Shown here: positions 4,250-34,964 of the stretch, one piece after another
How positions within the stretch are numbered: position 1 is the first letter of the stretch
How the letters are laid out: the number at the start of each line of letters is the position of its first letter
Origin: a virus
IMG/VR virus record: IMGVR_UViG_3300044641_002664
Span: 1-36,444 of that record
Reading direction: 5' to 3' (one strand)
DNA length: 36,444 bases
The notes under the pieces: model-generated
What the model was told of the DNA's origin: nothing
The model's input: only the letters and a program-made list of their open reading frames with translations
Database searches by the model: none
Made by a program: the position numbers and the translations under genes

Positions 4250-4272
4250 CAATCCTCCATTATCGTTTCTCA

Positions 4273-4279: not shown

Positions 4280-4315
4280 TTTACAATACTTTACAAAATA
4301 GGTCAATAGGAATTT

Positions 4316-15046: not shown

Positions 15047-15076
15047 AAAGTTGTTTTTAGTACTAAACGACATATC

Positions 15077-15111
15077 GAATAACCATGCAAATAGTTGCGG
15101 CATGGTTATTC
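15077..15111 (-). repeat. 12-bp perfect inverted repeat in the porin leader
   Basis: Arms GAATAACCATGC (15077-15088) and its complement (15100-15111), 11-base loop. No T-run, so not a standard terminator. It lies right after the apparent transcription start of the porin and could stabilise its mRNA. Confidence 0.7.
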
Positions 15112-15120
15112 AATGAATTT

Positions 15121-15149
15121 ACTTTAACATTTTTTTTACAATTCGTCAA
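15121..15149 (-). promoter_or_regulatory. Candidate early promoter of the porin gene
   Basis: Minus strand TTGACG (15149-15144), 17-base spacer, TAAAGT (15126-15121). The -35 overlaps the stop codon of the GT25 gene. The -10 is a weak match, so support is moderate. Confidence 0.45.
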
Positions 15150-15952
15150 GCTTTTGGTTGAGATGGTTCTGTGATTCTCCCTAGATACGGATCATATTCC
15201 ATTAAGTCCGCAATGGTTAACTGAGCCCCAGTCTGTTCCCAAAAGTTTTTAAGTCCATCATGACTTTGACGATGAAAAATATCAACGTGTTCTGGATGAA
15301 TAGATGATCCCAATTGAATCTTGTATAAGAAGAGTGGAATGGAGTAAGTATTTCCCGAATTATAAATTAAGTCATCAGCAACAGGACGTGGTTTAACACC
15401 ATTATCCAATCGATATTTGTCTTCTCCCTTCACATGAAATTTAAGAAGCTTTTCTGCATGATGCCTGTTGATAATATAACAAGCTGTAGAAAAATCATTT
15501 ACAAATCTTTTATGAAGTTTCACATGCAAATCACCAGTACAAATAATAGCAGTTTGAACTACATCCCAATCATATGGAATTCTAGAATAAAAATCTAACC
15601 AAGTAAAATTCCAAAATCTAACCAAATCCAAATTACAATCATCTTCCATAATAACTGCATATGGACTATCAGATGTTTCCATCCAATGTTTGATTGCTTT
15701 AAGATGTGATGTCGTGCAACCAATTTCCCCAGAGGTCATCATTTCTGGATATCTACCAGTAAGAATATCACTAAGGTCATCTTGTCTACCATCATACGCA
15801 GAGATACGAGTATAGTTTTCAATTTCCCAATATTTAAATTGGTCTTCCATATATTGAGCTCTCTCTGGTTGACCATCCAGATTAAGATAATAAATTGGAC
15901 CAATTCCCCTCAGCTTATATGCTGATTTATTTTTATCTAATAATTCATTCAT
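15146..15952 (-). CDS. Glycosyltransferase, GT25/LPS-LgtB type
   Basis: 268 residues with family-25 hallmarks: IGPIYYLNLDGQPERAQYM at the N-terminus, GEIGCTTSHLKAIKHW, an acidic VIMEDDCNLD (likely DxD-like metal site) and YIINRHHAEKLL. GT25 enzymes add galactose to lipooligosaccharide. Last gene of the glycan operon, ATGA-coupled to the UDP-glucose dehydrogenase gene. Donor and acceptor not predictable from sequence. Confidence 0.9.
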   Translation of the reverse strand: MNELLDKNKSAYKLRGIGPIYYLNLDGQPERAQYMEDQFKYWEIENYTRISAYDGRQDDLSDILTGRYPEMMTSGEIGCTTSHLKAIKHWMETSDSPYAVIMEDDCNLDLVRFWNFTWLDFYSRIPYDWDVVQTAIICTGDLHVKLHKRFVNDFSTACYIINRHHAEKLLKFHVKGEDKYRLDNGVKPRPVADDLIYNSGNTYSIPLFLYKIQLGSSIHPEHVDIFHRQSHDGLKNFWEQTGAQLTIADLMEYDPYLGRITEPSQPKA

Positions 15953-17112
15953 AACCCAACCAGAATAAAATCTTCTTTAATTTCAGATTGCTCAGAGACA
16001 AAAACAACTCTATCACCATAGTATTCTAGCATTGGTTGCTGAATTTGATCAAGGATTGTTTGGTTATCACCAATATAAACTTTATATCCAGCATCTAAAA
16101 GATCGATACAAAGTTTATATTGGCGACTTTCAGTTAAGATGTCCGTTCCTTTCTTATAAGAAACATGTGGGAAGTAATAAGGAAGACCTTCATTATTAAT
16201 TGAAGCAAAATATTCAAATAAGAATTTTGAATGTTGCTCATTAAAAGCATCAGTAACCGATCCAAGATTATACTTCAATCCAACCTTTTGAGCATATGCA
16301 GCAAAAGAACGATTGTCTCTAGGTAGACATGGACCACCATATCCAAATCCATATCTCATATATTTTTTACCAACTCTACTATCAGATCCGATAGCATCTA
16401 AAACCTGTTCGATTTCGTTTTCTAGACCAGATAAAGTTAAAACTTCACCGACCATATTTGCGTAACTGATTTTAGTTGTAAGGTAACAATTAAGTGCTAG
16501 TTTTACAATCTCTGCTGCAGTAGTAGACATAAAACAAGGATTTGCTTCAATCCATTGAATTCTGCTATAAATCGTAGCAATCTTAGATCTTACATTAGGA
16601 TCTTCCCCTCCAATAAGAACCATATCAGCATATCTCAGATCATGAATAATAGATCCCTGAGCAATAAATTCTGGGTTATAAAAAACGTCTACTCCATATG
16701 GAGAAAGTTTTTCTTTAAACTTTTCACAATCTCCAGGATTTGTAGTGCATCCAACTACAAAAACTTTTCCATTTAAATCAATACCATACTCAGATGCTTT
16801 TTGAATATCTTCAACTACTTTCCAAACAGCAGTTACATCGTAAGATCCATCTGCAGCAGAAGGAGTTGCTACCAAAGTGTAGATGATATCGGATTGCTTT
16901 ACAACCTCAATATTATCAATAGTCGCTACGAAGTTTTTAGCATCATCTAAAAGATCCGCTACTTCTGGTTCGTTGGTATTGATGATTCGATTGTTTAGGG
17001 AAATAACATAATCCTCACGACAATCAGATACGATAACATCATATCCAGATTTTTCTGCAAGAAGAGCAAAGCAAATACCAAGTCTTCCTGCTCCGATAAC
17101 TCCAATCTTCAT
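15949..17112 (-). CDS. UDP-glucose/GDP-mannose dehydrogenase family
   Basis: 387 residues. Rossmann GAGRLG near residue 7 and the catalytic thiol in GYGGPCLPRDNRSF (Cys262), preceded by the central NPEFIAQGS block. Oxidises a nucleotide sugar to a uronic acid, using two NAD. Shorter than UDP-glucose dehydrogenase norms (~440) at the C-terminal domain. ATGA-coupled on both sides. The NAD synthetase encoded just upstream could support it. Substrate unknown. Confidence 0.9.
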   Translation of the reverse strand: MKIGVIGAGRLGICFALLAEKSGYDVIVSDCREDYVISLNNRIINTNEPEVADLLDDAKNFVATIDNIEVVKQSDIIYTLVATPSAADGSYDVTAVWKVVEDIQKASEYGIDLNGKVFVVGCTTNPGDCEKFKEKLSPYGVDVFYNPEFIAQGSIIHDLRYADMVLIGGEDPNVRSKIATIYSRIQWIEANPCFMSTTAAEIVKLALNCYLTTKISYANMVGEVLTLSGLENEIEQVLDAIGSDSRVGKKYMRYGFGYGGPCLPRDNRSFAAYAQKVGLKYNLGSVTDAFNEQHSKFLFEYFASINNEGLPYYFPHVSYKKGTDILTESRQYKLCIDLLDAGYKVYIGDNQTILDQIQQPMLEYYGDRVVFVSEQSEIKEDFILVGL

Positions 17113-17903
17113 AGTTTAAATGTAGGAATAGACAACATTTTATGTTTATTTTGGGTGTTAAATTTTTTATAGACTTCGATTGCTTTTAGTTGATTTTCGT
17201 TAAGAAACATTGGATCTTCACTCAATCCAGTTTCCATAACCCACTCAAGCATTTCATAAGATGTTCCAATCTGATCCTCATCAGATCTACCATCTTCCCA
17301 AAGTCCATCTGTGGGAGGAGCATCAACAATACGTTGATCTACTCCAAGATATTTTCCAAGTTCCCATACCTCAGTTTTATAAAGGTCTGCGATAGGAGCA
17401 ATATCAACTCCACCATCACCATATTTAGTATAAAATCCCACACCGTAATCTTCAACTTTATTTCCAGTACCGACAACAATACCACCAACAGATCCAGCAA
17501 TTTGATACAAAGTAACCATGCGAATGCGTGATTTTGTATTTGCATTTGCAAGTTGATTGCTTGTGTACTGAGAACTGTTAGTCCACCAATTCAAACTATG
17601 AACGAATTTATCATACACACTAGAAAGTTCTACACGAATTCTAGTAACATTAGGATATTTTGCTTCCAATGCTTTTGTATGATCATCTGAAAGTCTATCA
17701 TTATCTACATTTGAAAGTAGAGGCATAGACAAGACATATGTTGGTAGTCCAGTTTCTGCACAAAGAGTTGAGACTACAGCAGAGTCAATTCCTCCAGAAA
17801 CTCCTACAACAAGAGATTTGATGCTAGGGTTTTCTAGTACATAGTCACCCAACCATTTAACAATTCTATTTTTTAATTGTTCGTAATCTGAAATTCGATT
17901 CAT
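17109..17903 (-). CDS. nadE: NAD+ synthetase, ammonia-dependent (NadE)
   Basis: 264 residues. P-loop SGGIDSA at 36-42, then NTKSRIRM, GTGNKVEDYGVGFYTKYGDG (deamido-NAD/ATP site), PIADLYKTEVWELGKYLG and GLWEDGRSDEDQIG, all diagnostic for NadE. No glutaminase domain, so ammonia-dependent. It makes NAD from NaAD. Unusual inside a glycan operon. It may supply NAD to the four nucleotide-sugar oxidoreductases/epimerases around it or replenish host NAD during infection. Both ends ATGA-coupled. Confidence 0.9.
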   Translation of the reverse strand: MNRISDYEQLKNRIVKWLGDYVLENPSIKSLVVGVSGGIDSAVVSTLCAETGLPTYVLSMPLLSNVDNDRLSDDHTKALEAKYPNVTRIRVELSSVYDKFVHSLNWWTNSSQYTSNQLANANTKSRIRMVTLYQIAGSVGGIVVGTGNKVEDYGVGFYTKYGDGGVDIAPIADLYKTEVWELGKYLGVDQRIVDAPPTDGLWEDGRSDEDQIGTSYEMLEWVMETGLSEDPMFLNENQLKAIEVYKKFNTQNKHKMLSIPTFKL

Positions 17904-18712
17904 TGGTATTTTTTAAGATACGACTGTTGTAAATAATAATTTTTTAATTCTTCCACACTCATTGATTGGACCTTTTCCCATTCATCATTATTCTGATTCA
18001 TATGGGGATTACTGAACCATGAATTAGGACCTCTTTTATGTTCTAGATGATAGACATAATCATTAATACGTCCTACATTATACCCCAATGTAGTAAATCT
18101 GTAAAATCTTTCTTTATCTTCTGGTGCATATGCTACAAAGTTTTCATTTTCCATTCCACCTTCAATATAAACTTTACGGTTAAAGAACTGAGCCCACCCA
18201 AAATCGGAGGTGTGAGTATTTGAATTTTTATCTAAAACTGAAAAATCAAAATCGTTAGATAGAAAATCAGAGACTAGTTCATCAGTAGCAGCAACTTGCT
18301 TCTGATACATCCCTTGACCGTATGGATATACAATATCATAAGTATGATCAATAATAGAATTATATGCCTCTAGATAAGAATTGAATGGGAGAATAACATC
18401 ACAATCATAATTTACAACAACCTCAGTATTGGAAACCCATAGCATTTCATTCAGAATTCTTTGCCTATGAAAAGTTCCACCATCACTTTCTTCAAAGATA
18501 TGATCAATATCTGGAACATTTCCCAGAAATTCTGAAATCTGAGGAAGTGCTTGATTACGAAATACTGAAGTAGAATCAACCTCCTTTAAGATTATATTTG
18601 TTTCAAAATTTTCCAATAAAAAGCATAGAGATGTAATAACATTCCTAAGTCTATCATCAGATTCTATTCTGACTGGAATGATAAAAGTCGCTTTTGATAA
18701 ATCAGTTTTCAT
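17900..18712 (-). CDS. Glycosyltransferase, GT2/GT7 galactosyltransferase-like
   Basis: 270 residues. An N-terminal FIIPVRIESDDRLRNVITSL region, a YDCDVILPF metal-binding-like motif, and a C-terminal GGMENENFVAYAPEDKERFYR block like the galactosyltransferase (Glyco_transf_7C) acceptor-side motif. Probably a beta-galactosyl- or GalNAc-transferase fold. Overlaps the GT2 gene by 11 bases. Confidence 0.82.
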   Translation of the reverse strand: MKTDLSKATFIIPVRIESDDRLRNVITSLCFLLENFETNIILKEVDSTSVFRNQALPQISEFLGNVPDIDHIFEESDGGTFHRQRILNEMLWVSNTEVVVNYDCDVILPFNSYLEAYNSIIDHTYDIVYPYGQGMYQKQVAATDELVSDFLSNDFDFSVLDKNSNTHTSDFGWAQFFNRKVYIEGGMENENFVAYAPEDKERFYRFTTLGYNVGRINDYVYHLEHKRGPNSWFSNPHMNQNNDEWEKVQSMSVEELKNYYLQQSYLKKYQ

Positions 18713-19460
18713 CTGGATACTTTCTAGTTTGTATAAATTCTGAATATTTTTCTTGAATATATTTTAATTCTTTACTATTCATCATCCATCCACCTTCTGG
18801 ATGCTCTACAACACAATCATATTGAGAAGTTGCTTGACTGCTTATTCGATTATCATGATCTCTATTTGCAACTAGAATATCAGGAATAATATTTGGAAGT
18901 CCATTATTCCACCTCATTCTATGATAAAAATCGGTGTCGAGTAATAGTTTTAGATTTAAATCAAAGTTAACTTTGCAATCATTTAAAAATGAAACTACGG
19001 ATGGACTGCTCAGAAGATTTCTTCCCTCAAGAGTGTAGTCAACCCATTTTGGAACTTTTTGATCATAGAAAGAAACTCCGTCTTTAGTTCCGCAAAATCC
19101 ACTAAATGCCCATTTACAATTAGATGTTTTGTATTCCTCGGAAATAATTTCTAATGCTTTCGGTGAAACAAAAACATCATCGGAGAACATGATTTTAATT
19201 ATTTTACCAGCACAATTATCTAAAGCAACATTAATATTTTCACATGCATTAGTACCAGAATATCTAACAAAAGTAAATTCAAAATCATCAGAATATTCTT
19301 TACAAACATCCAAGATTAAATCATTTTTACTTTGATCAGAAACAACAATATCAAAATCTTGAAACGTTTGAACCTTAAGAGAATCGAGCAATTGTCTCAT
19401 CCAAATTGGTCCATTCTCTCCCCTATCATGAGATGGAATTGCAATAGAAAATTCAGTCAT
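18702..19460 (-). CDS. Glycosyltransferase family 2
   Basis: 252 residues from ATG 19460 (TAATG overlap with the upstream gene; an in-frame start at 19475 would overlap it further). GT-A features: FSIAIPSHDRG, QTFQDFDIVVSDQSKND, IIKIMFSDDVFVS (DxD-like SDDVF). Adds a sugar from a nucleotide donor with inversion. Sits mid-operon. Confidence 0.86.
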   Translation of the reverse strand: MTEFSIAIPSHDRGENGPIWMRQLLDSLKVQTFQDFDIVVSDQSKNDLILDVCKEYSDDFEFTFVRYSGTNACENINVALDNCAGKIIKIMFSDDVFVSPKALEIISEEYKTSNCKWAFSGFCGTKDGVSFYDQKVPKWVDYTLEGRNLLSSPSVVSFLNDCKVNFDLNLKLLLDTDFYHRMRWNNGLPNIIPDILVANRDHDNRISSQATSQYDCVVEHPEGGWMMNSKELKYIQEKYSEFIQTRKYPDEN

Positions 19461-20251
19461 TAAATTCTTTCCCAATCCTCAGGTACTAAATCAACTTCAT
19501 CAATTGTAGCAGCAGGTCCAAACCAAACTTTGGGTGCAATAATTTTTTTAGAATTAGCCAACCATGCTCCCCACCAACTATAAGTACTATTAGCAATGAT
19601 ATGATATGAGCAAAGAGTCATAAGGCACATATCAATTATATTATCATCAGATTCCGAGATCAAAAATCTATCACTCTCAAATAAAGATTGAGTCTTACAC
19701 CACTTTGGATCATCAGAAAAAATCATAACTGGAAGATTTTCTGGTAGTTTTTCCAGTGCTGCTTCGTAGTATTCAAGAGGGAGAACTGGATGATATTGTG
19801 GTTTAATTAGATGATCTGTTCTACGAATATGAAGAGAAATTGCATCAACTCCAAATGAGAACATCTCTTTACATGGTTTGAGAATATCATCTACGAAAGT
19901 AAAGTCTTCACGAATTTCATCAGCAATATGATTAAAGTATTTTGGTGATTGAAAATACCCATAAAGATTTACGTTATCTTCGCAGTTATTAAAAAGATTT
20001 TCATTAAATCTAAATGTTTCCTCTTCCACATAAGGTGCTGGAAAAAGATTAACCTCCTTTACATGAGGAAGATTAAAAGCCATGAATAACTTATGCTGAT
20101 TTTCTTCATCGTTGAATTCATCATAAGTTTTAGGACCAGGGGGAATACACCAATCAAATCCTCGATTAGCAGCAATTCCTCTAGTAGCAGCGTATTGGAA
20201 CATTTGATTTCCAAAACGACCATTCTTTCCTAAGTGATTATGTCCGATCAT
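19460..20251 (-). CDS. GT11-type alpha-1,2-fucosyltransferase-like (copy 1)
   Basis: 263 residues with GT11 motifs: GRFGNQMFQYAATRGIAA, ISLHIRRTDH (HxRR donor motif), MIFSDDPKWCK and IIANSTYSWWGAWLANS. Closely resembles the GT11 gene at 27621, so paralogous. GT11 enzymes use GDP-L-fucose or a sugar of like stereochemistry. ATGA-coupled to the previous gene. Confidence 0.9.
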   Translation of the reverse strand: MIGHNHLGKNGRFGNQMFQYAATRGIAANRGFDWCIPPGPKTYDEFNDEENQHKLFMAFNLPHVKEVNLFPAPYVEEETFRFNENLFNNCEDNVNLYGYFQSPKYFNHIADEIREDFTFVDDILKPCKEMFSFGVDAISLHIRRTDHLIKPQYHPVLPLEYYEAALEKLPENLPVMIFSDDPKWCKTQSLFESDRFLISESDDNIIDMCLMTLCSYHIIANSTYSWWGAWLANSKKIIAPKVWFGPAATIDEVDLVPEDWERI

Positions 20252-20922
20252 AGTACAGTTCCTGGTGGTAAATGATAATGGAATCCAAAGGGAACAATTC
20301 CCTGAGTTTCTGGAAGTGGTTTTTCGTGAGAAAATTTAGCGGCAACTTCCACTGGGGCAAACTTACACCCCAATGCTTCGTAGATATGGCGATTGTGAAC
20401 GCAGATATTTCCATCCTCTCCAGTATTACCATATCCAAAATGCTTATAAAAGTCTCCCCAATTTACATCAAAGTGAATATAAGCTCTCTTGGGTACATCT
20501 AAAAGTTTTTTACTTCTAAAAGAGAATCCCCCATTTCCAACTCTATGAGGTTTTCCCCAAGGATCCAGATAAGAATGAGGAACTTGCTCCCAAGGAGCAC
20601 CAATATAATCATAATTAAAGAACTCATTATCCCATTTATCTGGATTAATTACAAACCCATCTGGTTGAACAAGAAGACAATAATCAGTATCAATATGTTT
20701 GCTCAGGTTGTAAATGCAATAATAATTGTAATCATGAATTGACTTAATCTCATAGCATTTAGAAAACTCAATTCCCTCGGGAAGATTACCTGGATCTTCG
20801 TGAGTAATCAACTTTACTGCACCAAAATTAATTCCCTTCATACTATGCTGTAGAGCAAAGAGTGCTCCAGGAATATTATTTGAAGATATGCAGAATAAAG
20901 TTACATTAGGTAGATTGATCAT
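20248..20922 (-). CDS. DUF5672-like glycosyltransferase
   Basis: 224 residues from ATG 20922 (GAGG 11 bases upstream; longer starts are possible). Shows TDYCLLVQPDGFVINP, YDYIGAPWEQVP and RVGNGGFSFRSKKLL, the pattern of DUF5672 proteins common in glycan clusters. Acts on an unknown acceptor. Soluble. Coupled at both ends. Confidence 0.84.
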   Translation of the reverse strand: MINLPNVTLFCISSNNIPGALFALQHSMKGINFGAVKLITHEDPGNLPEGIEFSKCYEIKSIHDYNYYCIYNLSKHIDTDYCLLVQPDGFVINPDKWDNEFFNYDYIGAPWEQVPHSYLDPWGKPHRVGNGGFSFRSKKLLDVPKRAYIHFDVNWGDFYKHFGYGNTGEDGNICVHNRHIYEALGCKFAPVEVAAKFSHEKPLPETQGIVPFGFHYHLPPGTVL

Positions 20923-21763
20923 TAGTTTCATCACCTCGCTTGATATACACAATAATATTACTACTATACCACTCTTCTACCTTATTTGTATCATCAACTA
21001 AAAAGTTTTCTGGAAGAGAATCAATAGTCTTTACATGATGCTCAAATCTTTCTTGAGTGTCTGGATTACGAACAATGTATGAAAAATTTGATTTAGATAC
21101 AAACTTATCAAAGTAATCTAATTGAGTTTCAAGATTACACTCTGAAAGAGAATTTACAGCAATAACTAAATCAAAATCTTTTTTCTTTATTGAAGAAAGT
21201 TTATCGCATGGAACGAAATTGACTTTATCTTTTAAATGCTCGAAATTTGAAATATACTTTTGAGCAAGTTTACAAGCCTCAGGTAAATCTATTAGAGTAT
21301 AAGACTCAAATTCAATTAGATTAGATAATAGTAAACAAAGTCCACCATACCCACCACCAATCTCAATAATATTTTTTAAAGAAAGAGGTTGCGATTGTTG
21401 TTCAAGAAAACAAACAATATCAATAGCGTTAAATGCAAACTTAAGAGTACTTGGAGAAATTAAACCAATTTCACTCTCATCGTATAAGTCTGGATTACCA
21501 ATCTTATCATTCTCTTTAAACTTTTCAAGATTGCTGTAAAACAAATTTTTCTTTAAATGAGAATTAATTTTCTGAACATAATAATCAGAAAAAAGTTTTG
21601 GAGCACCTTCTAAAATTGTTCTGTATTTTTCATTCTTCCTGAAGTTAGAAAATTCATTATCATATTCCACTGCTTCAAGACATGCAGAAGTATAATCAGA
21701 AAGAGTTTCATTTTCTGCGGCAATCCATCCGTAGAAATTTTTCTTTTTATTAATCGTTTTCAT
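20906..21763 (-). CDS. Putative sugar O-methyltransferase
   Basis: 285 residues from ATG 21763 (the frame's earlier codon is TTG). NIIEIGGGYGGLCLLLSNL is a SAM-binding motif I followed by a SYTLIDLPEACKLAQKYI helix, as in the 'putative sugar O-methyltransferase' group. It has a helical N-terminal cap. Would methylate a sugar hydroxyl in the glycan. Confidence 0.82.
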   Translation of the reverse strand: MKTINKKKNFYGWIAAENETLSDYTSACLEAVEYDNEFSNFRKNEKYRTILEGAPKLFSDYYVQKINSHLKKNLFYSNLEKFKENDKIGNPDLYDESEIGLISPSTLKFAFNAIDIVCFLEQQSQPLSLKNIIEIGGGYGGLCLLLSNLIEFESYTLIDLPEACKLAQKYISNFEHLKDKVNFVPCDKLSSIKKKDFDLVIAVNSLSECNLETQLDYFDKFVSKSNFSYIVRNPDTQERFEHHVKTIDSLPENFLVDDTNKVEEWYSSNIIVYIKRGDETNDQST

Positions 21764-22733
21764 ATTTTGTAATGATACCCGAAAGTCCAAAGTTTTGTAC
21801 GCCCTTATAATTCTCGTATTCTTCCCAACACTGAGCAGCAGTCTTTACTGTTCCGTTTTTATCCATGTAATTCCAATCCATAACGATGGAATCTGCAGGT
21901 CTCCAAAATCCATCAGAGATGTTCCAATCAAACCAATACATTGGTGCGATTACTTTCTTAACTTCTGTAGATAACCAAACAGGCCAGAAAGAAAATGTAG
22001 ATGCAGACATGATAACATATTTTGCAGTATTCAAAATAGTGTAATCAATAGAAAGAGGGCCTCCACCCATCTGATACCATCCAATTTTATAATCTGGACC
22101 CCCTGGTTCATCAGAAACTGCTGCACCAACAACTTCAGCGTTTGGAATATGTCTTCTAGCTAGATTTGGATCATCAGTCACAACAACAAACTTAATATCA
22201 GGATTTTCTTCTTGCATTGCTTTCATCGCCATCTGATAATACTCGGGAGGCAAGAAAGAATGTCCAGTAGAATAATCTCCACCCCTAAAGTGAACTACAC
22301 AAATATTATCTTGAGAATAATCTCTAATAATTTTATCTTCATCAAGTTTACACCATTCTCTAATATCATCACGACGATCTTCAATAAAGATCATGTTTTG
22401 AAATGTTCCATCAACTTTTGTGTTATCTGGGAGAAAAAACAACATTGGGTCAACAGGATTATAATCATGACCACTTTTTGGATGTCGATACTGACATTCT
22501 TTATACCAGTATTCGATTCCTTGCGGAAGAGAATCAGGTGGTCCTCCATCAGGACCAGACCCACCAATTACTTCATTACCCCAGAAAAAAGGCATCCAAC
22601 CAGCACCTTTCCAAAGGTGCTTTCCCATAATACCATAATCATATCCTAACTTTTCTGCGATGATTCTAACCACAACAGCGCCCCAGATCTGGTTTCCAAT
22701 TCCAGATCCAAGATACATTTCATTAACTAGCAT
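21750..22733 (-). CDS. Divergent GT11-like glycosyltransferase
   Basis: 327 residues. GSGIGNQIWGAVVVRIIAEK matches the GT11 start in altered form, VVHFRGGDYSTGH replaces HxRR, FVVVTDDPNLARRHIPNA and VIMSASTFSFWPVWLS follow. A distant third member of the GT11 set, probably with altered donor use. N-terminal region around 60-90 is Gly/Pro-rich. Confidence 0.78.
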   Translation of the reverse strand: MLVNEMYLGSGIGNQIWGAVVVRIIAEKLGYDYGIMGKHLWKGAGWMPFFWGNEVIGGSGPDGGPPDSLPQGIEYWYKECQYRHPKSGHDYNPVDPMLFFLPDNTKVDGTFQNMIFIEDRRDDIREWCKLDEDKIIRDYSQDNICVVHFRGGDYSTGHSFLPPEYYQMAMKAMQEENPDIKFVVVTDDPNLARRHIPNAEVVGAAVSDEPGGPDYKIGWYQMGGGPLSIDYTILNTAKYVIMSASTFSFWPVWLSTEVKKVIAPMYWFDWNISDGFWRPADSIVMDWNYMDKNGTVKTAAQCWEEYENYKGVQNFGLSGIITKYEND

Positions 22734-23674
22734 GAAATCTCCTTAATAGCTTTACTTACAATGTTATCATAGAAATATGGTAGGGTCAATGTGGTAAAAT
22801 CTATTTGTTTTACCTCATTATAAAGATGTTCATTTTGAACTAAAAGTTCTTCAGTAACATCTTCATAGTTGTCTACAAAAAGAACAGGATAATTCTTATA
22901 CAGTTCCTCAAGATAAGGATGTCTCTTCATCACTGGAACTCTTTTGAGGTATAACACTTCCCAATTTCGGTGACAGTCTAAAGCGTTACCGATAGGACAA
23001 ATCATAAATTTGTGATTTTTGATTTTCTTCAAAAACTCTTCATACCCAACACGTTCTTTATCTACCAATACCCAATACTTATCTTCAAAGATTTCATTAA
23101 TACCAGATCTCTCTTTTGGATTTGTATGAGTGCTATGATTTATGTATAAGAGATTGGTTGGAGTGATATCAGAATCTAACATCACTTTATTCAGAATCTC
23201 ATTTCTATTATCTCCAGGATGCATTTGCCTTTGTAATCCATATGGTGCTGGAATAACTTTACCACCCCAAGAAGCAGCGTTTACAGCAGAAATACAAAGG
23301 ACATTTTCTGGGATAGCATCAAAGATATATTGATCAATTGGGGTATCTTCAAGATTAGTAAAGATGATAAAGTTTATATCTTTAAAGTTAGAACACAATT
23401 TTAAAAGATCGCTTCTATCCATTAAAGACCAAACATAATCTTTATCTTCTGGTTTTACTTCTTCAATATCTCTCTTATACAGTCTGATATTATCAATAAA
23501 CAAAGTCATATAGTTTCTTTGTTTCTTTAGTTCAAAAACTTTAGAAACAAATTCAACATTTGTTAAATTAGCATCTTTCATAAAAGAGGTAAAAATATTA
23601 CCCCATTGTCCAGATTGATCACCGAAAGAGTAATCGCAAAGTTTAGATAATGCTACGCCTTCAATCAATTCCAT
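22727..23674 (-). CDS. Putative glycosyltransferase, exostosin-like
   Basis: 315 residues. The C-terminal half contains FMICPIGNALDCHRNWEVL and KRVPVMKRHPYLEELYKNYP, the donor-binding type block of exostosin/GT47-like enzymes. N-terminal half is diverged. Overlaps the GT17 gene by 10 bases. Assignment to a family is tentative, the glycosyltransferase role less so. Confidence 0.68.
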   Translation of the reverse strand: MELIEGVALSKLCDYSFGDQSGQWGNIFTSFMKDANLTNVEFVSKVFELKKQRNYMTLFIDNIRLYKRDIEEVKPEDKDYVWSLMDRSDLLKLCSNFKDINFIIFTNLEDTPIDQYIFDAIPENVLCISAVNAASWGGKVIPAPYGLQRQMHPGDNRNEILNKVMLDSDITPTNLLYINHSTHTNPKERSGINEIFEDKYWVLVDKERVGYEEFLKKIKNHKFMICPIGNALDCHRNWEVLYLKRVPVMKRHPYLEELYKNYPVLFVDNYEDVTEELLVQNEHLYNEVKQIDFTTLTLPYFYDNIVSKAIKEISC

Positions 23675-24525
23675 GGTTTAATGTACTGAGTAAACTTATC
23701 TTGATTATTCAAAATGTATTCTGGGAAAGAATCATCGATAGGAACTGTAGGATAAACATTTCCGCGATTGAGAGGATCTAATCCGTTTTCAATTTTTTCT
23801 TCTGCATTATCAATTACATCTGGTGTATTGTGATGGCAGTCTGCAGACGCTGCTAACTTTTGTTTGAATTTATCAGCATCACCAAAATAACTCCAATGCC
23901 AACCAGCAGACTCGATTAAATGAGATTCACTTAAACTCTGTCTCAGTTTATCAACACTAATCTCCTTAAGAGTTTTCCAAGAACAAATTCTAGATCCTGC
24001 CCAATTTTCTTGATAAAGAATGTTGAGTTTATAATAAAATGATCTTTGAAGACATGCATAATGATTTGAAGCATCGAACCAATCCACATTCTTAAGAATT
24101 AATGGATTAACAATTTCATCAGCATCACTGGTAATAACAATATCCTCATCAGAAACTCCTGCCTTTTCTAAAGAAAACGCTGTACAATTTCTAGCGTAGA
24201 TATCTCTTTGATACCTAACAGGAATATCAATAAATCTCTGCCCGCAGTTATTATCAATATCCCCATAGGCAGTATGATATTTTTTCTTCTCTACATAATC
24301 CGAGAAGTCATTAGGAATTTCTTCCGTAATATCATGAATCACTTTATCATTAAACTTTGAAAACTGATCTTTATTTTCCAGATAAAGTAATGGCTTTTCA
24401 TGTCCACTAATTGTATATGGACATTCAGTGATTACAAAATAGTCTACAACATCATAAAGTAGATTAAATCTAATTTCTAAAAGTTCCAACTCATTAAAGA
24501 ATCGAAACGAATCAAAAATTTTCAT
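23665..24525 (-). CDS. Glycosyltransferase family 17 (MGAT3-like)
   Basis: 286 residues. Starts KIFDSFRFFNELELLEIRFN and continues YFVITECPYTISG, typical GT17; VITSDADEIVNP supplies a DxD. GT17 enzymes make beta-1,4-GlcNAc linkages in eukaryotic N-glycans and occur in giant and other phages. C-terminal HWSYFGDADKFKQKLAA block is also typical. Mid-operon, one base from its neighbour. Confidence 0.9.
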   Translation of the reverse strand: MKIFDSFRFFNELELLEIRFNLLYDVVDYFVITECPYTISGHEKPLLYLENKDQFSKFNDKVIHDITEEIPNDFSDYVEKKKYHTAYGDIDNNCGQRFIDIPVRYQRDIYARNCTAFSLEKAGVSDEDIVITSDADEIVNPLILKNVDWFDASNHYACLQRSFYYKLNILYQENWAGSRICSWKTLKEISVDKLRQSLSESHLIESAGWHWSYFGDADKFKQKLAASADCHHNTPDVIDNAEEKIENGLDPLNRGNVYPTVPIDDSFPEYILNNQDKFTQYIKPWN

Positions 24526-24526
24526 A

Positions 24527-25198
24527 TCAGTTCTTAGTAATAATGATTAGTCCGTTATTTTCTTCAGTCTCATATTCAATTTCCCATTCGGGATTTTCTT
24601 CCAAGAATTCATCAATTGCTAGTCTAATTCCACCTGATCCATCAAGAGTATCTCTTTGTGGATGGTTTGGATCCATGGATGGATAACCTTCACCACGCTC
24701 ACCAAATGTATAGGTATCGTGAAAAGCAATATACTTTCTAACTTTACCAGCATGAAGTTCTAGTTCTTTTTTAAGTTGATCGTAGCAGTGCCACGTATCA
24801 ATGAAAAGCATATCAGTTTCTTCAATTTCTACTGTAAGAACATCGGCACCAATATATTCACAATTCACACCCAATTCTTGTGCTTGATGAAAGACTTTAA
24901 TTAGAGCGTTAACTTCTCTAGCGAGGTGTGGTTCTGGATTTTCATATTGATAATCATAAGAGACAAATTTTTTAGGATTAGCATATAAAAATGCAGATGT
25001 ACTATTTCCAGATCTTGCCCCCATTTCGGTTACATGATCACACTTCTTAGCGTATTCATACAAAACAGGAAGATGCATGTAAATATCAGATACTTCACAT
25101 GCACATGCATCTTCATAGATGTCTTGAATACTAAATGGTTTAGCGACTTTAGCAGGTCTATTCTTTGGTTGATAGACAAGAACTTTTGAATTTCTCAT
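24527..25198 (-). CDS. Class I SAM methyltransferase-like protein A
   Basis: 223 residues. VTEMGARSGNSTSAFLYANP is a SAM motif, with CEYIGADVLTVEIEETDMLF and FHDTYTFGERGEG (CmcI/Methyltransf_24-like). N-terminus has a basic leader. Glycan O-methylation is inferred from context. Sits 13 bases after its neighbour, with a weak ribosome-binding site. Confidence 0.78.
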   Translation of the reverse strand: MRNSKVLVYQPKNRPAKVAKPFSIQDIYEDACACEVSDIYMHLPVLYEYAKKCDHVTEMGARSGNSTSAFLYANPKKFVSYDYQYENPEPHLAREVNALIKVFHQAQELGVNCEYIGADVLTVEIEETDMLFIDTWHCYDQLKKELELHAGKVRKYIAFHDTYTFGERGEGYPSMDPNHPQRDTLDGSGGIRLAIDEFLEENPEWEIEYETEENNGLIIITKN

Positions 25199-25211
25199 AA
25201 TTTTAATTAAT

Positions 25212-25889
25212 TTAATTTAAGGTTTCCGATGAAATTGGTTTCCAATGAGATGAATTTCCAATGTATGTGATCTTTCTTTCAAAAGGACTTTCTTCCATAA
25301 TAACGTATTTTGGTTGATTATCATTCACAAAATTTTGTACAGATTTACTCACAAGCCCATTATCACAATCATCAATTAATATATTATCAATTCCCAGTCT
25401 AGCACAATTTTTTAAATCTGAATATGCACATTCGTAATCGTGCCCACCATCAACCCAAGCAAGATCAAATTTAATTTGTTCTGGATTCTCAAAATTACTT
25501 AAAGTCTCTACAGAATTTCCAGGAAAGAAAGTAATAAATTCTTCACCAAAATACTTGTGAATTTCATCAACGCAAAGTTGACTTTCTTCATTTATGCCGA
25601 ATGTCCAAATTTTAACATCTGGAATTAACTTTTTCATAAAATATGAATAATATCCTTTATGAGTTCCAACCTCTAAAACATTTTTAGGTTTGATTTGATC
25701 CACATATTTTTTATGAAAATCCAATTGTTCCACTAATCCATTACAACCCAACCAATTAAATAAAGCACCCTCGTCATCTAAAAACATTACATAAAGTTTA
25801 TTCAAGAAATCATAATCATATTCTTTTAATTCTTCCCTTGATAAAAATTCATCCCTATCCGTCGTTAATCCTTTGATTGGTTCTTGCAT
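25212..25889 (-). CDS. Class I SAM methyltransferase-like protein B
   Basis: 225 residues. KNVLEVGTHKGYYSYFMKKL motif, then KIWTFGINEESQLCVDEI, FDLAWVDGGHDYECAYSDL and NILIDDCDNGLVSKSV. A Methyltransf_24-type fold, also found in glycan clusters. Its ATG overlaps the epimerase stop (TGATG). Confidence 0.8.
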   Translation of the reverse strand: MQEPIKGLTTDRDEFLSREELKEYDYDFLNKLYVMFLDDEGALFNWLGCNGLVEQLDFHKKYVDQIKPKNVLEVGTHKGYYSYFMKKLIPDVKIWTFGINEESQLCVDEIHKYFGEEFITFFPGNSVETLSNFENPEQIKFDLAWVDGGHDYECAYSDLKNCARLGIDNILIDDCDNGLVSKSVQNFVNDNQPKYVIMEESPFERKITYIGNSSHWKPISSETLN

Positions 25890-26881
25890 CAGTCTTTCCA
25901 GTATTCGTAAATATTTTTAGTAACTTCATAATCCATATCTTTAACTTTTCTATTTGGTTGCTTCATAGCCCAAACAAAAACATCTTCAATGAGATCTTCA
26001 AGGTTTGTGTTATCCACAAATTCTAATATAGTCTTTGCTTTTGTATGATCACAATAAGCGTGTTTTACTTCATGCCTAGCTTCCCCATGCTCGATAGGAA
26101 CATCATATCCATATTTTCGCCCAATCTTTTGAACTGTTTGAGCAACTTCATTAAGTGAAAAATACTTATCAGCACCAATATTAAAAATTTCACCATCGTA
26201 CTCTGTTAGAAGTTTATCGAATGGTTCCATATAATATTTGATATCTGAAAAAGCTCTTGTCTGCTCACCATCACCATACACAAGAATAGGAATTCCATTT
26301 AGAGTTTTTCTAATAAAAATTCCAATTACGTTTCTATAACGATCCCAAATATTTTGGTACTTACCCAAAACGTTGTGTGGACGAACGATATTATACCTTA
26401 ACCCAAATTGCTTACGAGCTAATTCAAGATCAACCTCTACGGCATACTTTGCAACGCCATAAGGATCGATAGGTTGTGGTCTCTTATCTTCAGTAAAAGG
26501 AGGTTCCTGAGCACCATAAACAGCCATGCTTGATGTAAAAATCATCTTAGCATCGTGTTTAATGCACTCATTAATCAAATTTGCAGAGCAAATAAGATTG
26601 TTCCTATAGTTAAAATTCCTAATAAAAGGAGAAAGTCCTTCGGCAGCATAAGCAGCAAAATGTACTACTACATCTGGTTTATGTTCATCAAATAAATCTA
26701 TAAGTTTTTTTCTTTTCTCTAGATTCAATTTAGCAAAAGTAAAGTGTTCATCTTTAGGAAGAAACGCTTTATATCCCCCAGAAAGATCATCAATACCAAT
26801 TACATCATGACCATTCTTAAGAAGATGCCTAGTATAATTGGACCCAAGAAGTCCAGCACATCCAGTTACAAAAATCTTCAT
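25889..26881 (-). CDS. UDP-glucose 4-epimerase-like SDR
   Basis: 330 residues. Rossmann GCAGLLGSNY, FTSSMAVYGA, and YGVAKYAVE with the YxxxK catalytic pair; SDIKYYMEPFDKLL and FNIGADKYFSLNEV fit GalE-like extended SDRs. Interconverts nucleotide sugars (for example UDP-Glc/UDP-Gal). Coupled ATGA upstream. Confidence 0.9.
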   Translation of the reverse strand: MKIFVTGCAGLLGSNYTRHLLKNGHDVIGIDDLSGGYKAFLPKDEHFTFAKLNLEKRKKLIDLFDEHKPDVVVHFAAYAAEGLSPFIRNFNYRNNLICSANLINECIKHDAKMIFTSSMAVYGAQEPPFTEDKRPQPIDPYGVAKYAVEVDLELARKQFGLRYNIVRPHNVLGKYQNIWDRYRNVIGIFIRKTLNGIPILVYGDGEQTRAFSDIKYYMEPFDKLLTEYDGEIFNIGADKYFSLNEVAQTVQKIGRKYGYDVPIEHGEARHEVKHAYCDHTKAKTILEFVDNTNLEDLIEDVFVWAMKQPNRKVKDMDYEVTKNIYEYWKD

Positions 26882-27624
26882 ACAGTAATTACCATTTCAT
26901 TTAAACAATTGGGATCAATTTCCTCGATATAATATGGAGAAGATCTATTAAAATATATATTCGTTAAGAAGTTACGCATCTCAAAAACTTCTTCCCAATC
27001 AATATTTTTTTTATATTCTGGAATATAAGATACGTCTTTAATTTGTACGAAGGTCATACCATAACTTTCTTTAAAATGCCTTACTGCAATATGGTCATCT
27101 TCATATTCCCCATCCAACTCCTTCAATCCAAAGAAATCCATAACTGCATGATTAACAGTTTTAGTCTCTCTTCCATCATATATTTCGCAAATACCATCCT
27201 CCCATTCCGTATCATGAAAAACAAAAAATCCATTTGGTTTAATATAATCTGTCCAAAAATAAAGTTCGGCAAGGACTTGTTCTCTAACGTGAAGAGTATC
27301 TACAAATACTAAATCTACTAAACCTTCACCCCACATTTTTCCAAGAGTAACGCTATCAGCAGCAATTTTGTGGTAATTAGAAGTTCTATCGTACCATTCA
27401 TCAAGCACATTGAATGTAATATCACACCCAAAGATATGGGTGTTTTTTTCTTCCGCACGATAAGAGAGAATTGCAGAAGAAACTCCGTGTCTAACACCCA
27501 GATCAACGCAAATTAAATTATCACATGGTTCTATCAAAGAAAATAATCTTAGACCATTGACCCCCAGATCACAGTATGGATTGGTTAAAGCATGTATTAC
27601 ATGTTCTCTTTCTGTTATTTTCAT
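26878..27624 (-). CDS. Class I SAM methyltransferase-like protein C
   Basis: 248 residues from ATG 27624, which has GGGAG five bases upstream and overlaps the GT11 stop (ATGA), preferred over codon 27636. LICVDLGVRHGVSSAILSYR, IFGCDITFNVLDEWY, VDLVFVDTLHVREQVL and FFVFHDTEWEDG fit a Methyltransf_24-type enzyme. Substrate unknown. Confidence 0.78.
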   Translation of the reverse strand: MKITEREHVIHALTNPYCDLGVNGLRLFSLIEPCDNLICVDLGVRHGVSSAILSYRAEEKNTHIFGCDITFNVLDEWYDRTSNYHKIAADSVTLGKMWGEGLVDLVFVDTLHVREQVLAELYFWTDYIKPNGFFVFHDTEWEDGICEIYDGRETKTVNHAVMDFFGLKELDGEYEDDHIAVRHFKESYGMTFVQIKDVSYIPEYKKNIDWEEVFEMRNFLTNIYFNRSSPYYIEEIDPNCLNEMVITV

Positions 27625-28475
27625 AAAATCTCCCATTCACTGCAATACAAATCTTTAGTATCCTTATCAGCATATGCTGGTCCAAACCAATTCTTTGGGG
27701 TGATTACTTTTTTATTTGGATTTGATTGCAACCAAGCACCCCACCAGCTCATAGAACTGTTAGCAATAATAGCATGAGAACACAGGGACATCAAACACAA
27801 ATCTGCATATGGTGTATAGGAACCATCCGCATATTTTTGTTGAGGGACTGATTGAAAAAATCTATCTCCAGAGAAAAATTCTTGCTCTTCGACCCATTCG
27901 GGAGAATCAGAAAACACAATCACTGGTTGATTATCATCAAATACCTCTAAAGCACGTTCATAATAATCAAGTGGTTGAACAGGATGCTGATCACCACACT
28001 GAGTATAAGACCACTTAAAACCACGAGGATCCATTAAATTTGGATCTCCCCTACGAACATGAAGCATGATTGGTTCTTGCCCTTCAAACTCAGACATAAA
28101 CTCTTTACATGGTTCTATGTGCTCATCATGAAACGTGTATTCTTTTCTTATAACATTTTCAACATGTGAGAAATATTTCTCAGATTGAAAAAATCCATGA
28201 AGACTTACATTGTCTGGACATTTCTCAAACAACTCTTCATCAAAGTGAAAAAATCTTTCAGATAGATATTGGACTTCTAAAATTTGAAGATTTTCTTCTT
28301 GCACGTCCTCCATCTTGAAACACTTATGAAGACTGTAGTTTTCAATACCAGTCAGATGTGTTGGAGGAATACACCAATCATATTCATGTTTAGCAGCAAT
28401 ACCTCTTAATGCTGCATATTCAAACATTTGGTTTCCAAGTCTTCCAAGGTTTCCAATTTGATTAAACGCCAGCAT
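27621..28475 (-). CDS. GT11-type alpha-1,2-fucosyltransferase-like (copy 2)
   Basis: 284 residues. GRLGNQMFEYAALRGIAA, MLHVRRGDP, VIVFSDSPEWVEEQ and IIANSSMSWWGAWLQSN are GT11 signatures, strongly alike to the copy at 19460. GT11 enzymes transfer L-fucose from GDP-L-fucose; the GDP-mannose 3,5-epimerase gene nearby could instead provide GDP-L-galactose. Confidence 0.92.
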   Translation of the reverse strand: MLAFNQIGNLGRLGNQMFEYAALRGIAAKHEYDWCIPPTHLTGIENYSLHKCFKMEDVQEENLQILEVQYLSERFFHFDEELFEKCPDNVSLHGFFQSEKYFSHVENVIRKEYTFHDEHIEPCKEFMSEFEGQEPIMLHVRRGDPNLMDPRGFKWSYTQCGDQHPVQPLDYYERALEVFDDNQPVIVFSDSPEWVEEQEFFSGDRFFQSVPQQKYADGSYTPYADLCLMSLCSHAIIANSSMSWWGAWLQSNPNKKVITPKNWFGPAYADKDTKDLYCSEWEIL

Positions 28476-29319
28476 AGTCTTCCCTCATACTCTTAAAAAT
28501 CTGTGCAATTCCTTGCTCAATTGTAGTCTTAGGTTGCCACCATTTCATCAGGTAAGTATCTGGTTTATTTCTCTTGTCCATCTGAACACTATCCTTTTCA
28601 GCAGAAGGTTGAACCTTAACATCATGCCTTCCAATCAAATTAAATTGACCACAAATTATACTTGCGATATCAATAATTTTTGTAGAATGAAAACTTGTAA
28701 TGTGAAGATTATCCTCTGAGGTAAAGTCATTATAATTTTCCATGATTGATTCAAGTGCTTCACAGCAATCCTCAGCATAAAGAAATTCTCTTTCTTCTTG
28801 TCCATCAGTCATCATATCAATAACACCAGTTTCAAATCCCTTACGAATAAAGTCAGTGATTACATGAGCCTTCTCATGATCTTTTTCAATACCATAAACA
28901 TTCCAGAACTTAACGATAAGTCCATTCAATGACTTAGTATAAAGTTCACCAACATTCTTGAGAACTCCATATGGAGAGTAACTCATATTACTCATCTGAG
29001 ATGATGCAAAGATGAACCTCTTATTATACTTTTTAAGAAGTCCAAATGCATTGACCATCAAACGACCATTGTTATCAATGAATTGGAAAGTGTGTTGATA
29101 CTTTTTAAGATAACGAGATCCACCAACATCAAATGCAAGGAAGAACACAAAGTCTGAATCTGCAATTCTTTCTTCAAGAAGAAGATTGGGAATCAAGGTC
29201 ATATCCTCATGAGGATTATTTACGACATCAAACTCATAAACATAATGACCTTTTTCGCGCAAGTAATCTGTAAGGTAGGCACCAATCTGCCCACTGGAAC
29301 CAAGAATAGTAATTTTCAT
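28462..29319 (-). CDS. Extended SDR epimerase/reductase
   Basis: 285 residues. GSSGQIGAYLTDYLREKG Rossmann motif, a RFIFASSQMSNMSYSPYGVL segment with YxxxK. Ends AQIFKSMREDYAGV. Shorter than typical 4,6-dehydratases; could be a GDP-fucose-synthase- or dTDP-rhamnose-reductase-like step. ATGA-coupled to the gene before. Confidence 0.82.
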   Translation of the reverse strand: MKITILGSSGQIGAYLTDYLREKGHYVYEFDVVNNPHEDMTLIPNLLLEERIADSDFVFFLAFDVGGSRYLKKYQHTFQFIDNNGRLMVNAFGLLKKYNKRFIFASSQMSNMSYSPYGVLKNVGELYTKSLNGLIVKFWNVYGIEKDHEKAHVITDFIRKGFETGVIDMMTDGQEEREFLYAEDCCEALESIMENYNDFTSEDNLHITSFHSTKIIDIASIICGQFNLIGRHDVKVQPSAEKDSVQMDKRNKPDTYLMKWWQPKTTIEQGIAQIFKSMREDYAGV

Positions 29320-30392
29320 ACTGTTTGCAATAAATTATCAGTTGTTTCTTTAATTAGGATTTGGGACTCAATCCAATTATAAGTCTTACGAATTCCTTCC
29401 TCAAGAGTCTGAGAATAATCCCATCCCAGTTTTTCACGGATAAGATCATTGTTGGAATTACGTCCGCGAACTCCAAGAGGTCCATCGATATGATTCCTTT
29501 CTACAGTTTTTCCAGAAACTCTTGCTGCAGTTTCTACAAGTTGATTGATAGTAACCATTTCTTCTGATCCAATATTCACTGGTCCAATAAAATCAGAATC
29601 CATTAATCTGCGGGTTGCCTCAATGCATTCATCAATATACAAGAACGACCGAGTTTGTTTTCCATCACCCCACACATCAATAGTTCCTCCTTCTTCTGGG
29701 AGGTAGGCGACTTTGCGACAGATTGCTGCAGGTGCCTTTTCTCTTCCACCTTCCCATGTTCCTTCTGGGCCAAAGATGTTGTGATAACGAGCGACCCTAA
29801 CAGGAATCCCATAGTTACGATAGTACGCAAAATAGAGTCTTTCACTGAAGAGTTTTTCCCATCCATATTCGGAATCTGGGTTTGCTGGATATGCTGATTC
29901 TTCACGACAGTCTGGATTATCGGGATCCAATTGATTATGTTCTGGATACATGCAAGCAGATCCAGAATAGAAAATTTTAGTCTTATTTACGCTCTTAAAG
30001 TCATTTAATTGACGCTGTGCCTCAAGAACATTAAGGTTAATTTGTGACGAGTTATGCATAATATCAGCGTCGTTTTCGCCAGTAAAGACGAAACCTGCTC
30101 CACCCATATCAGCAGCAAATTGATATACCTCATCAAAGGTATCAATATATCTTGAAGGAACAAAGTTATAGAAATTTCTGTAAGGACCTTTATATTGGAG
30201 AACTCTTTCAACAAAAGTAAGATCTCTTAGGTCTCCTACAATAAATTCATGTGCTTCACTTTCTGAAAACTCAGGAAGTTTAAGATCTACACCACGAACC
30301 CAATATCCTTCGGAGCGCAGTCTTTTTACCATGTGACTTCCAATGAAACCACCAGCACCAAGTACAAGTGCTGTTTTCGTATATTGACTCAT
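29316..30392 (-). CDS. gme: GDP-mannose 3,5-epimerase-like SDR
   Basis: 358 residues from ATG 30392 (the longer frame opens with TTG). GAGGFIGSH; FAADMGGAGFVFTGEND; catalytic SGSACMYPE with Cys147; YGWEK (Tyr176/Lys180); YHNIFGPEGTWEGGREKAPA; and GPLGVRGRNSNNDLIREKLG are the blocks that identify plant GDP-mannose 3,5-epimerase. That enzyme turns GDP-D-mannose into GDP-L-galactose and GDP-L-gulose. First gene of the glycan operon, about 40 bases after a terminator, so read-through or a local promoter is needed. WcaG-type epimerases are the main alternative. Confidence 0.85.
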   Translation of the reverse strand: MSQYTKTALVLGAGGFIGSHMVKRLRSEGYWVRGVDLKLPEFSESEAHEFIVGDLRDLTFVERVLQYKGPYRNFYNFVPSRYIDTFDEVYQFAADMGGAGFVFTGENDADIMHNSSQINLNVLEAQRQLNDFKSVNKTKIFYSGSACMYPEHNQLDPDNPDCREESAYPANPDSEYGWEKLFSERLYFAYYRNYGIPVRVARYHNIFGPEGTWEGGREKAPAAICRKVAYLPEEGGTIDVWGDGKQTRSFLYIDECIEATRRLMDSDFIGPVNIGSEEMVTINQLVETAARVSGKTVERNHIDGPLGVRGRNSNNDLIREKLGWDYSQTLEEGIRKTYNWIESQILIKETTDNLLQTV

Positions 30393-30434
30393 AAAAGCAA
30401 TCAAGTAAATAATCTTCTTATTATATATTCTACT

Positions 30435-30463
30435 AAAAAAGGGAGGTTTTGTAAACCTCCCTT
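30435..30463 (-). terminator. Intrinsic terminator/attenuator before the glycan operon
   Basis: 11-bp perfect stem AAGGGAGGTTT/AAACCTCCCTT with a 3-base loop and a TTTTTT run on the minus strand. It lies 130 bases past the 77-residue gene and 43 bases before the first glycan gene. Confidence 0.9.
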
Positions 30464-30592
30464 GGGTAACTCAGGCTCGCCACCAATTCTTTGACTGGAA
30501 ATTGGAAACCAGGCGGGAGAGAGTCCCATCCGCACCACTTGCCTTTTAATGGGAAGGCAAGAAACCAAAAGGGGTCGTTTTGACTCCACCAC
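30464..30592 (-). ncRNA. Structured leader upstream of the glycan operon (wcaG-motif candidate)
   Basis: No convincing gene. The minus-strand RNA can form several helices: CTTGCCTT/AAGGCAAG (8 bp, 8-base loop), GGGA/TCCC in a CTCTC loop, CCAATT/AATTGG (11-base loop), and the terminator. The wcaG RNA motif is known from cyanophages, often before exopolysaccharide genes. Location and WcaG-like SDR first gene fit, but membership must be tested. A 63-residue ORF in the same strand ignores the structure and I reject it. Confidence 0.45.
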
Positions 30593-32503: not shown

Positions 32504-32585
32504 AATACCCCCCTTTTGTTCCGAAATAAAGAGTTGTTAATATGAAAGGAACTGAAACAAATAAAAGTGCTTTTGCTAATAACAT
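32463..32585 (-). CDS. 40-residue membrane peptide after PTOX
   Basis: ATG 32585 overlaps the PTOX stop (TGATG). MLLAKALLFVSVPFILTTLY is one helix, then a polar GGYYDTEKYKG tail. Overlaps the next gene. Coupling suggests membrane partnership with PTOX; unproven. Confidence 0.55.
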   Translation of the reverse strand: MLLAKALLFVSVPFILTTLYFGTKGGYYDTEKYKGNGTAH

Positions 32586-34864: not shown

Positions 34865-34880
34865 TATACTCTTTTTTGAG

Positions 34881-34888
34881 TATTTATG
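34881..34888 (-). promoter_or_regulatory. Late-type promoter (CATAAATA) of dps
   Basis: CATAAATA on the minus strand between tRNA-Val and the dps ATG, fitting the NATAAATA form of the late octamer. Confidence 0.5.
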
Positions 34889-34892
34889 CAAG

Positions 34893-34964
34893 TGGGCGAT
34901 GACGGGATCGAACCGCCGACATACTCGGTGTAAACGAGGCACTCTACCGCTGAGTTAATCGCCC
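34893..34964 (-). tRNA. tRNA-Val (TAC)
   Basis: Acceptor GGGCGAT/ATCGCCC with A73; anticodon loop TTTACAC (TAC) on a stem with one mismatched outer pair; T arm GGCGG-TTCGATC-CCGTC. Confidence 0.9.

Follow-up and report, generated by a model that had tools for sequence, protein, structure and literature searches.

GDP-mannose 3,5-epimerase (GME) and its product GDP-L-galactose have already been named in a cyanophage, S-SCSM1, in 2022 (PMC9602691). A characterized cellular relative is the thermophilic GME of Methylacidiphilum fumariolicum (PMC6678494), whose gene adjoins a glycosyltransferase and a methyltransferase. The wcaG motif (RF01761) was described as a riboswitch candidate without ligand, located upstream of exopolysaccharide-type genes and present in marine cyanophage (Weinberg 2010, PMC2864571). 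Here we analyze IMG/VR record IMGVR_UViG_3300044641_002664 over 36,444 nucleotides (hereafter the window), a 36.4-kb piece of a T4-like cyanomyovirus, i.e. a virus of marine cyanobacteria. It carries an 18-gene glycan operon that starts with a GME gene and is preceded by a wcaG RNA.

The window resembles S-SCSM1 in that both are T4-like, possess a wcaG RNA and have GME (70% identity) beside GT11 and other glycosyltransferases. S-SCSM1 differs by having gmd (GDP-mannose 4,6-dehydratase) and fcl beside GME, and its description makes no connection between wcaG and GME (PMC9602691). Phage S-SCSM2R (PQ898602, 190687-203351) is a near-sister, with wcaG RNA, GME (83.5%), the short-chain dehydrogenase/reductase (SDR) that we call gene 17, NadE, a UDP-glucose/GDP-mannose dehydrogenase family protein (UGDH), three GT11s, GT2 and no gmd; unlike the window, it has a 2OG oxygenase between the RNA and GME, a gene annotated as GT10 and fewer methyltransferases. 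S-SRM01 (MW015081) shares the leading wcaG RNA, two GT11s, GT25, GT2-like genes and a methyltransferase, but gmd, fcl and a NodZ-like fucosyltransferase replace GME. The M. fumariolicum enzyme has the same catalytic residues as the phage GME, the latter being known from sequence (PMC6678494). Compared with the original wcaG description (PMC2864571), the downstream gene is here identified as GME (gmd elsewhere), and a composite of terminator and promoter lies between. GME occurs at 64% identity or more in 37 phage records, where it mostly bears the annotation UDP-glucose 4-epimerase or nucleotide-sugar epimerase, and relatives of the window GME are present in at least 599 IMG/VR stretches. So many relatives rule out novelty of the operon as a unique 18-gene arrangement: sister operons exist in many isolates, and the enzyme is common among cyanophages. 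We consider it somewhat probable that the locus as a whole is an L-galactose glycan operon, in which GME would feed GT11 enzymes acting on the host envelope, and which alternates with gmd-fcl in related phages.

Judged by its sequence, the first gene encodes a genuine GDP-mannose 3,5-epimerase, as the earlier note had proposed from characteristic sequence blocks. All top matches in a PDB search are GMEs, with Arabidopsis and other plant enzymes at about 1e-84 and GDP-fucose synthases at just 1e-17 to 1e-19. The NAD-binding GxxGxxG motif is present as GAGGFIG. In GME, Cys145 and Lys217 form the acid/base pair and Arg306 acidifies the cysteine; the combination of base lysine and arginine distinguishes GMEs from GDP-fucose synthases, which have histidine and lysine instead (PMC8787198). 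The window enzyme keeps S143, C145, Y174, K178, K217 and R306 (its own S145, C147, Y176, K180, K219 and R311). These six catalytic residues are conserved in 128/128 viral and 79/79 bacterial GME homologues; viral GDP-fucose synthases have histidine at the base position in 30/30 cases and lysine at the Arg306 position in 24/30. A maximum-likelihood tree sets the GDP-fucose synthases apart, at 100/100 support, from Arabidopsis GME and the phage enzymes, that of the window among them. Residues and tree together rule out a GDP-fucose synthase, the phylogenetic placement named beforehand as one that would speak against the assignment.

The phage GME is thus predicted to convert GDP-mannose into GDP-L-galactose. 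It is quite improbable, in our opinion, that this homologue mainly makes something else, be it GDP-L-gulose or a one-sided epimer processed by gene 17, and that the final sugar is not L-galactose. Such an outcome would accord with the GDP-L-gulose by-product released by GMEs (PMC6678494), with the mere ~45% identity of the phage clade to the plant enzyme and its insertion of ~16-20 residues near residue 65-85, and with the SDR of unassigned specificity that follows GME in many loci; the catalytic residues, however, are all of GME type.

The earlier note saw no GDP-mannose 4,6-dehydratase in the window, and this extends further. A 59.4-kb IMG/VR contig (L004/G001) matches the window at 100% identity over 17.1 kb up to its right end and continues 25 kb beyond it, with genes for ribonucleotide reductase, DnaB-type helicase, RecA-family protein, DNA polymerase B and Hsp20. 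Together they cover ~61 kb of perhaps 200 kb of the virus, and no gmd match above cut-off was found in either. Three Epimerase-family genes are present in the window, none of them near the GDP-fucose synthase cut-off. The dehydratase, whose presence elsewhere in the genome would also have counted against the idea, is likewise absent from the complete near-sister S-SCSM2R.

The operon comprises 18 consecutive minus-strand open reading frames (window 15146-30404), neighbours either overlapping or standing no more than 13 nt apart, listed here in order of transcription:

29316..30404, minus strand: GDP-mannose 3,5-epimerase (GME), first gene; E=1e-84 to 2c59/8sg0; start ATG 30392 or TTG 30404
28462..29319, minus strand: gene 17, nucleoside diphosphate (NDP)-sugar SDR, cyanophage-specific; active-site YxxxK present; AlphaFold pLDDT 84
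27621..28475, minus strand: GT11 glycosyltransferase a, HVRRGD motif; PF01531 75 bits
26878..27636, minus strand: methyltransferase; PF13578 49 bits
25889..26881, minus strand: GalE-like NDP-sugar epimerase/dehydratase; PF01370 161 bits; top PDB match UDP-glucose 4-epimerase TM0509, E=1e-39
25212..25889, minus strand: O-methyltransferase; PF01596/PF13578
24527..25198, minus strand: putative methyltransferase, from the earlier note only; no Pfam or PHROG match
23665..24525, minus strand: GT17 glycosyltransferase; PF04724 79 bits
22727..23674, minus strand: putative glycosyltransferase, from the earlier note only; no Pfam or PHROG match
21750..22733, minus strand: divergent GT11-like transferase, FRGGD replacing HxRRxD; PF01531 31 bits
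20906..21790, minus strand: putative methyltransferase; PF08242 25 bits, below cut-off; PF10294 21.5 bits, at cut-off
20248..20952, minus strand: DUF5672 protein, putative glycosyltransferase; PF18922 68 bits
19460..20251, minus strand: GT11 glycosyltransferase b, HIRRTD motif; PF01531 85 bits
18702..19475, minus strand: GT2 glycosyltransferase; PF00535 37 bits
17900..18712, minus strand: putative GT2-like glycosyltransferase; no Pfam match; phrog_15655 (function unknown) 409 bits
17109..17903, minus strand: NadE, NH3-dependent NAD synthetase family; PF02540 166 bits; TIGR00552 above cut-off
15949..17112, minus strand: UGDH; TIGR03026 above cut-off; phrog_9148; adjoins NadE
15146..15952, minus strand: GT25 glycosyltransferase, last gene; PF01755 48 bits

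Genes overlap at 15 of the 17 junctions and the remaining two gaps measure 1 and 13 nt, so the operon is indeed unbroken; its description as mostly ATGA-coupled is roughly right, exact 4-base overlaps being found at 6 junctions with the starts used here. The gene tally of the earlier note is largely correct, and family models bear out a good part of it. They clearly support the four nucleotide-sugar enzymes and NadE. From the nine glycosyltransferases counted before, six score above Pfam cut-offs (GT25, GT2, GT17 and three GT11); of the other three, 20248-20952 is a DUF5672 protein, and 17900-18712 and 22727-23674 lack a Pfam match. Two of the four proposed methyltransferases (25212-25889 and 26878-27636) are above cut-off, a third (20906-21790) is borderline and the fourth (24527-25198) has no match. 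These five other assignments, with weak or absent model matches, are plausible.

The three GT11 enzymes score 85, 75 and 31 bits with PF01531 (cut-off 23.9). The HxRRxD motif is present in 19460-20251 and 27621-28475, and FRGGD in 21750-22733, whose fold model matches NodZ and FUT8 best, with weak support at a model pLDDT of just 63. Solved GT11 relatives were not found by sequence search. The connection of GT11 to GME, supposed in the earlier note, is borne out by gene order. Among 97 distinct GME loci, 14 have a GT11 immediately after GME and 21 more have the gene-17 SDR there, which overlaps a GT11; in another 17, gene 17 lies within 1.5 kb (38 loci with gene 17 in total). In Bellamy, S-8S55, S-CAM9 and S-PRM1, a 4-base overlap joins GME to GT11.

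Gene content points the same way, in that GT11-bearing isolates have GME or gmd and seldom both. Phage records chosen by GT11, plus two chosen by gmd, were scored for gmd, GME and GT11 (25 in all). The 24 GT11-bearing cyanophage records comprise 14 with GME only, 8 with gmd only, one with both (S-SCSM1) and one with neither (B23); Fisher's test gives p = 1e-4 for alternation, a value overstated by the relatedness of the phages. Gmd-like matches in Bellamy and SynMITS9220M01 (~164 bits) were not counted, since they are far below the cut-off of 415; the latter sits within a heptose-type cluster. An independent set of 78 GT11-seeded IMG/VR loci contains 23 with GME only, 9 with gmd/fcl only, 7 with both and 39 uninformative ones, mostly because of short flanks. 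Strict mutual exclusion, rarely broken in isolates, thus fails in IMG/VR contigs, and alternation of GME and gmd across GT11 loci is a tendency, not a rule.

The same transferases appear under either module. Module labels are clustered on the GT11 tree (13 changes against 26 in shuffles), yet switching is repeated; the three window GT11s fall in GME-only clades. Both GT11s of the gmd phage S-SRM01 are each sister to GT11s of Sf-CH8 and S-T4, which have GME, and such sister pairs suggest that one donor module replaced the other while the pair of transferases stayed. Around this GT11 pair the module appears swapped, with gmd-fcl in S-SRM01 (locus L002) and GME in the sister group of loci L162, L163, L249 and L244. 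Several kinds of fucosyltransferase accept GDP-L-galactose (PMC8787198), so that either donor is chemically reasonable for GT11. Transfer of L-galactose by the window GT11 enzymes appears likely.

The hosts were sampled as 121 genomes of one family, that of a Prochlorococcus genome which was taken as centre for its GME. Gmd is above cut-off in 89 of them; GME is found in one, the centre genome itself. Phage GME would therefore bring in a nucleotide sugar whose enzyme is almost never encoded by the sampled hosts, and gmd phages, unlike GME phages, duplicate a host activity. In Prochlorococcus AG-409-M05, a 290-kb contig (L256) encodes a GME that shares 79% identity with the phage enzyme; a resolvase gene lies upstream and a UGDH gene downstream, and gmd was not found in this genome. 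Phage-like GMEs (70-78% identity) are also present in contigs of metagenome-assembled genomes named Euryarchaeota, Rhodobacteraceae and Pelagibacteraceae (L257, L258 and L262), possibly misbinned cyanophage.

Because so many genomes of the host family carry gmd, many infected cells probably contain GDP-fucose. The GT11s may then be ordinary fucosyltransferases using host GDP-fucose, with the phage GDP-L-galactose going to another transferase of the operon. We regard this as possible, if on the unlikely side. Homologous GT11s of GME and gmd phages that intermix on the tree, and contigs having both modules, agree with it; the rarity of both modules together in isolates, the GME-GT11 gene overlap in several genera and the grouping of GT11 subclades by module speak against it. 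Several points also weigh against the L-galactose reading as a whole. To our knowledge, characterized GT11s use GDP-L-fucose. Most host-family genomes encode gmd, both modules co-occur in 7 of the 39 informative IMG/VR GT11 loci (p = 0.77 there), the substrate of the gene-17 SDR is unassigned and the genome at hand is incomplete.

Gene 17 ends where GT11 starts in many loci. Its AlphaFold model (pLDDT 84) has a fold of GalE/GDP-fucose synthase type; as this is the fold of NDP-sugar SDRs generally, it indicates no specific substrate. In P-SSM2 and P-SSM5 gene 17 adjoins gmd-fcl instead, a placement which suggests that it acts on a GDP-L-hexose. At the other end of the operon, the UGDH-NadE adjacency recurs in 27/32 phage glycan loci, and the pairing fits supply of NAD to an NAD-consuming enzyme. 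NadE was also considered as a uronic-acid amidase beside UGDH and rejected: it resembles NAD synthetase, is closest to Francisella-type NadE, and a literature search brought up nothing pertinent. At another place (L155:11712-12893) this virus has a nucleotidyltransferase-like gene, a candidate for NMNAT.

In the L-galactose reading, the operon would serve glycan synthesis during the lytic cycle. GME would convert host GDP-D-mannose into GDP-L-galactose and some GDP-L-gulose, and GDP-L-galactose would be passed to the GT11/fucosyltransferase-type enzymes, possibly via a further step by the neighbouring gene 17. The GT11s would put an L-galactosyl residue where related phages put L-fucose. Uronic acid and hexose would be supplied by UGDH (with NadE) and the GalE-like enzyme, respectively; the remaining transferases would assemble the chain and the methyltransferases cap it. 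Family-model scans recognized no flippase, polymerase or ligase among the operon proteins, which makes a host envelope glycan (lipopolysaccharide/O-chain) of the infected cell the likeliest acceptor. The same lack, together with many cytoplasmic transferases, would also suit protein glycosylation, but attachment of the glycan to virion proteins in place of host lipopolysaccharide or capsule seems unlikely to us: the operon contains no structural gene or oligosaccharyltransferase, and lipopolysaccharide-type clusters of cyanophages are usually interpreted as host surface modification (PMC9602691). Directly after the operon, at window 13598-15103 on the minus strand, lies a gene for an OprB-type porin that carries an SLH domain, a kind of outer-membrane protein typical of cyanobacteria; phage S-SRM01 likewise has an annotated porin.

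GME and gmd-fcl would then be alternative modules from GDP-mannose to a GDP-L-hexose, serving the same kinds of GT11 behind the same RNA leader. The leader, absent from the earlier note, lies ~65 nt upstream of the earliest possible start codon of GME:

30469..30569, minus strand: wcaG RNA (RF01761), operon leader; 101.1 bits against a gathering threshold of 42; own covariance model 104 bits
30461-30435, minus strand: terminator-like hairpin and T-run, read from sequence; overlaps the sigma70-like promoter
30427..30461, minus strand: element with sigma70-like promoter, -35 TTTACA 30455-30450, 17-nt spacer, -10 TAGAAT 30432-30427, read from sequence

Our own covariance model, used in place of a strict regular expression that overlooked divergent copies, finds wcaG RNA in 68/80 GME-seeded loci and never downstream of GME; as the loci are related, this is conservation and not 68 independent events. 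The RNA ends 48-154 nt before GME (mostly 68-83) in 50 loci and 0.5-5.6 kb upstream in 18. In 13 of 25 wcaG-matching phage records, and in the window's contig, it lies upstream of GME or gmd on the same strand, directly or within 3.5 kb; it stands directly before gmd in DSL-LC03, S-SKS1, L223, L234, L235 and L238. A pattern scan unseeded by GME has GME as the commonest gene downstream of wcaG (13/45 stretches). Specificity for GME alone is ruled out, since gmd, tail fibres, Hlips, oxygenases and tRNAs are also found behind wcaG. We note wcaG RNAs directly before apparent tRNA sequences (L097, L099, L113 and L122), which are hard to square with a simple sugar-gene riboswitch.

A hairpin and T-run overlapping a promoter-like site (TTGACA/TTGCAT-17-TATAAT) follows 38/58 wcaG cores. 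Such composites number 101 over 6.7 Mb of strand sequence; 43 are behind a strict wcaG core, and most of 25 others listed are behind a divergent one. In the loci read, the composite of hairpin and promoter, which together with its wcaG RNA spans window 30427-30569 (minus strand), accompanies most wcaG RNAs and is seldom met apart from them. Should the promoter be active, transcripts from it would lack wcaG RNA, which would then act on read-through from upstream. As a speculative proposal, unlikely to hold in full, wcaG could be a dedicated leader of the GDP-mannose to GDP-L-hexose step (GME or gmd), sensing a branch metabolite (GDP-mannose, GDP-L-galactose or GDP-L-fucose) and setting read-through of a terminator fused to an early operon promoter, so that the phage produces an L-galactose glycan beyond its host's own capacity.

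Besides the operon, the window encodes redoxin, phage lysozyme and eight tRNAs, together with the following:

3188-4306: psbD
4847-5926: psbA
5963-6052, minus strand: PhotoRC-II RNA, before psbA
32585-33085, minus strand: alternative-oxidase (PTOX-like) gene, among the eight tRNA genes
34430-34942, minus strand: ferritin/Dps-like gene, among the eight tRNA genes

Plant GME feeds vitamin C synthesis and phages have high-light and redox genes, so L-galactose might be meant for ascorbate as an antioxidant of the infected cell. We give this almost no credence, as no genes for later ascorbate steps were seen among the scanned open reading frames and GME sits inside a glycosyltransferase operon.

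The main interest lies in the alternating modules and their common RNA leader. The same transferases, paired now with GME and now with gmd, offer a natural experiment on donor choice by GT11, and wcaG before both modules can be tested with three named candidate ligands. Cyanophage GME genes are often annotated as UDP-glucose 4-epimerase, and their chemistry has thereby been overlooked. If our reading is true, marine cyanophages import a sugar-nucleotide pathway almost always missing from their hosts, and would write an L-sugar onto the surface that is recognized by other phages and grazers.

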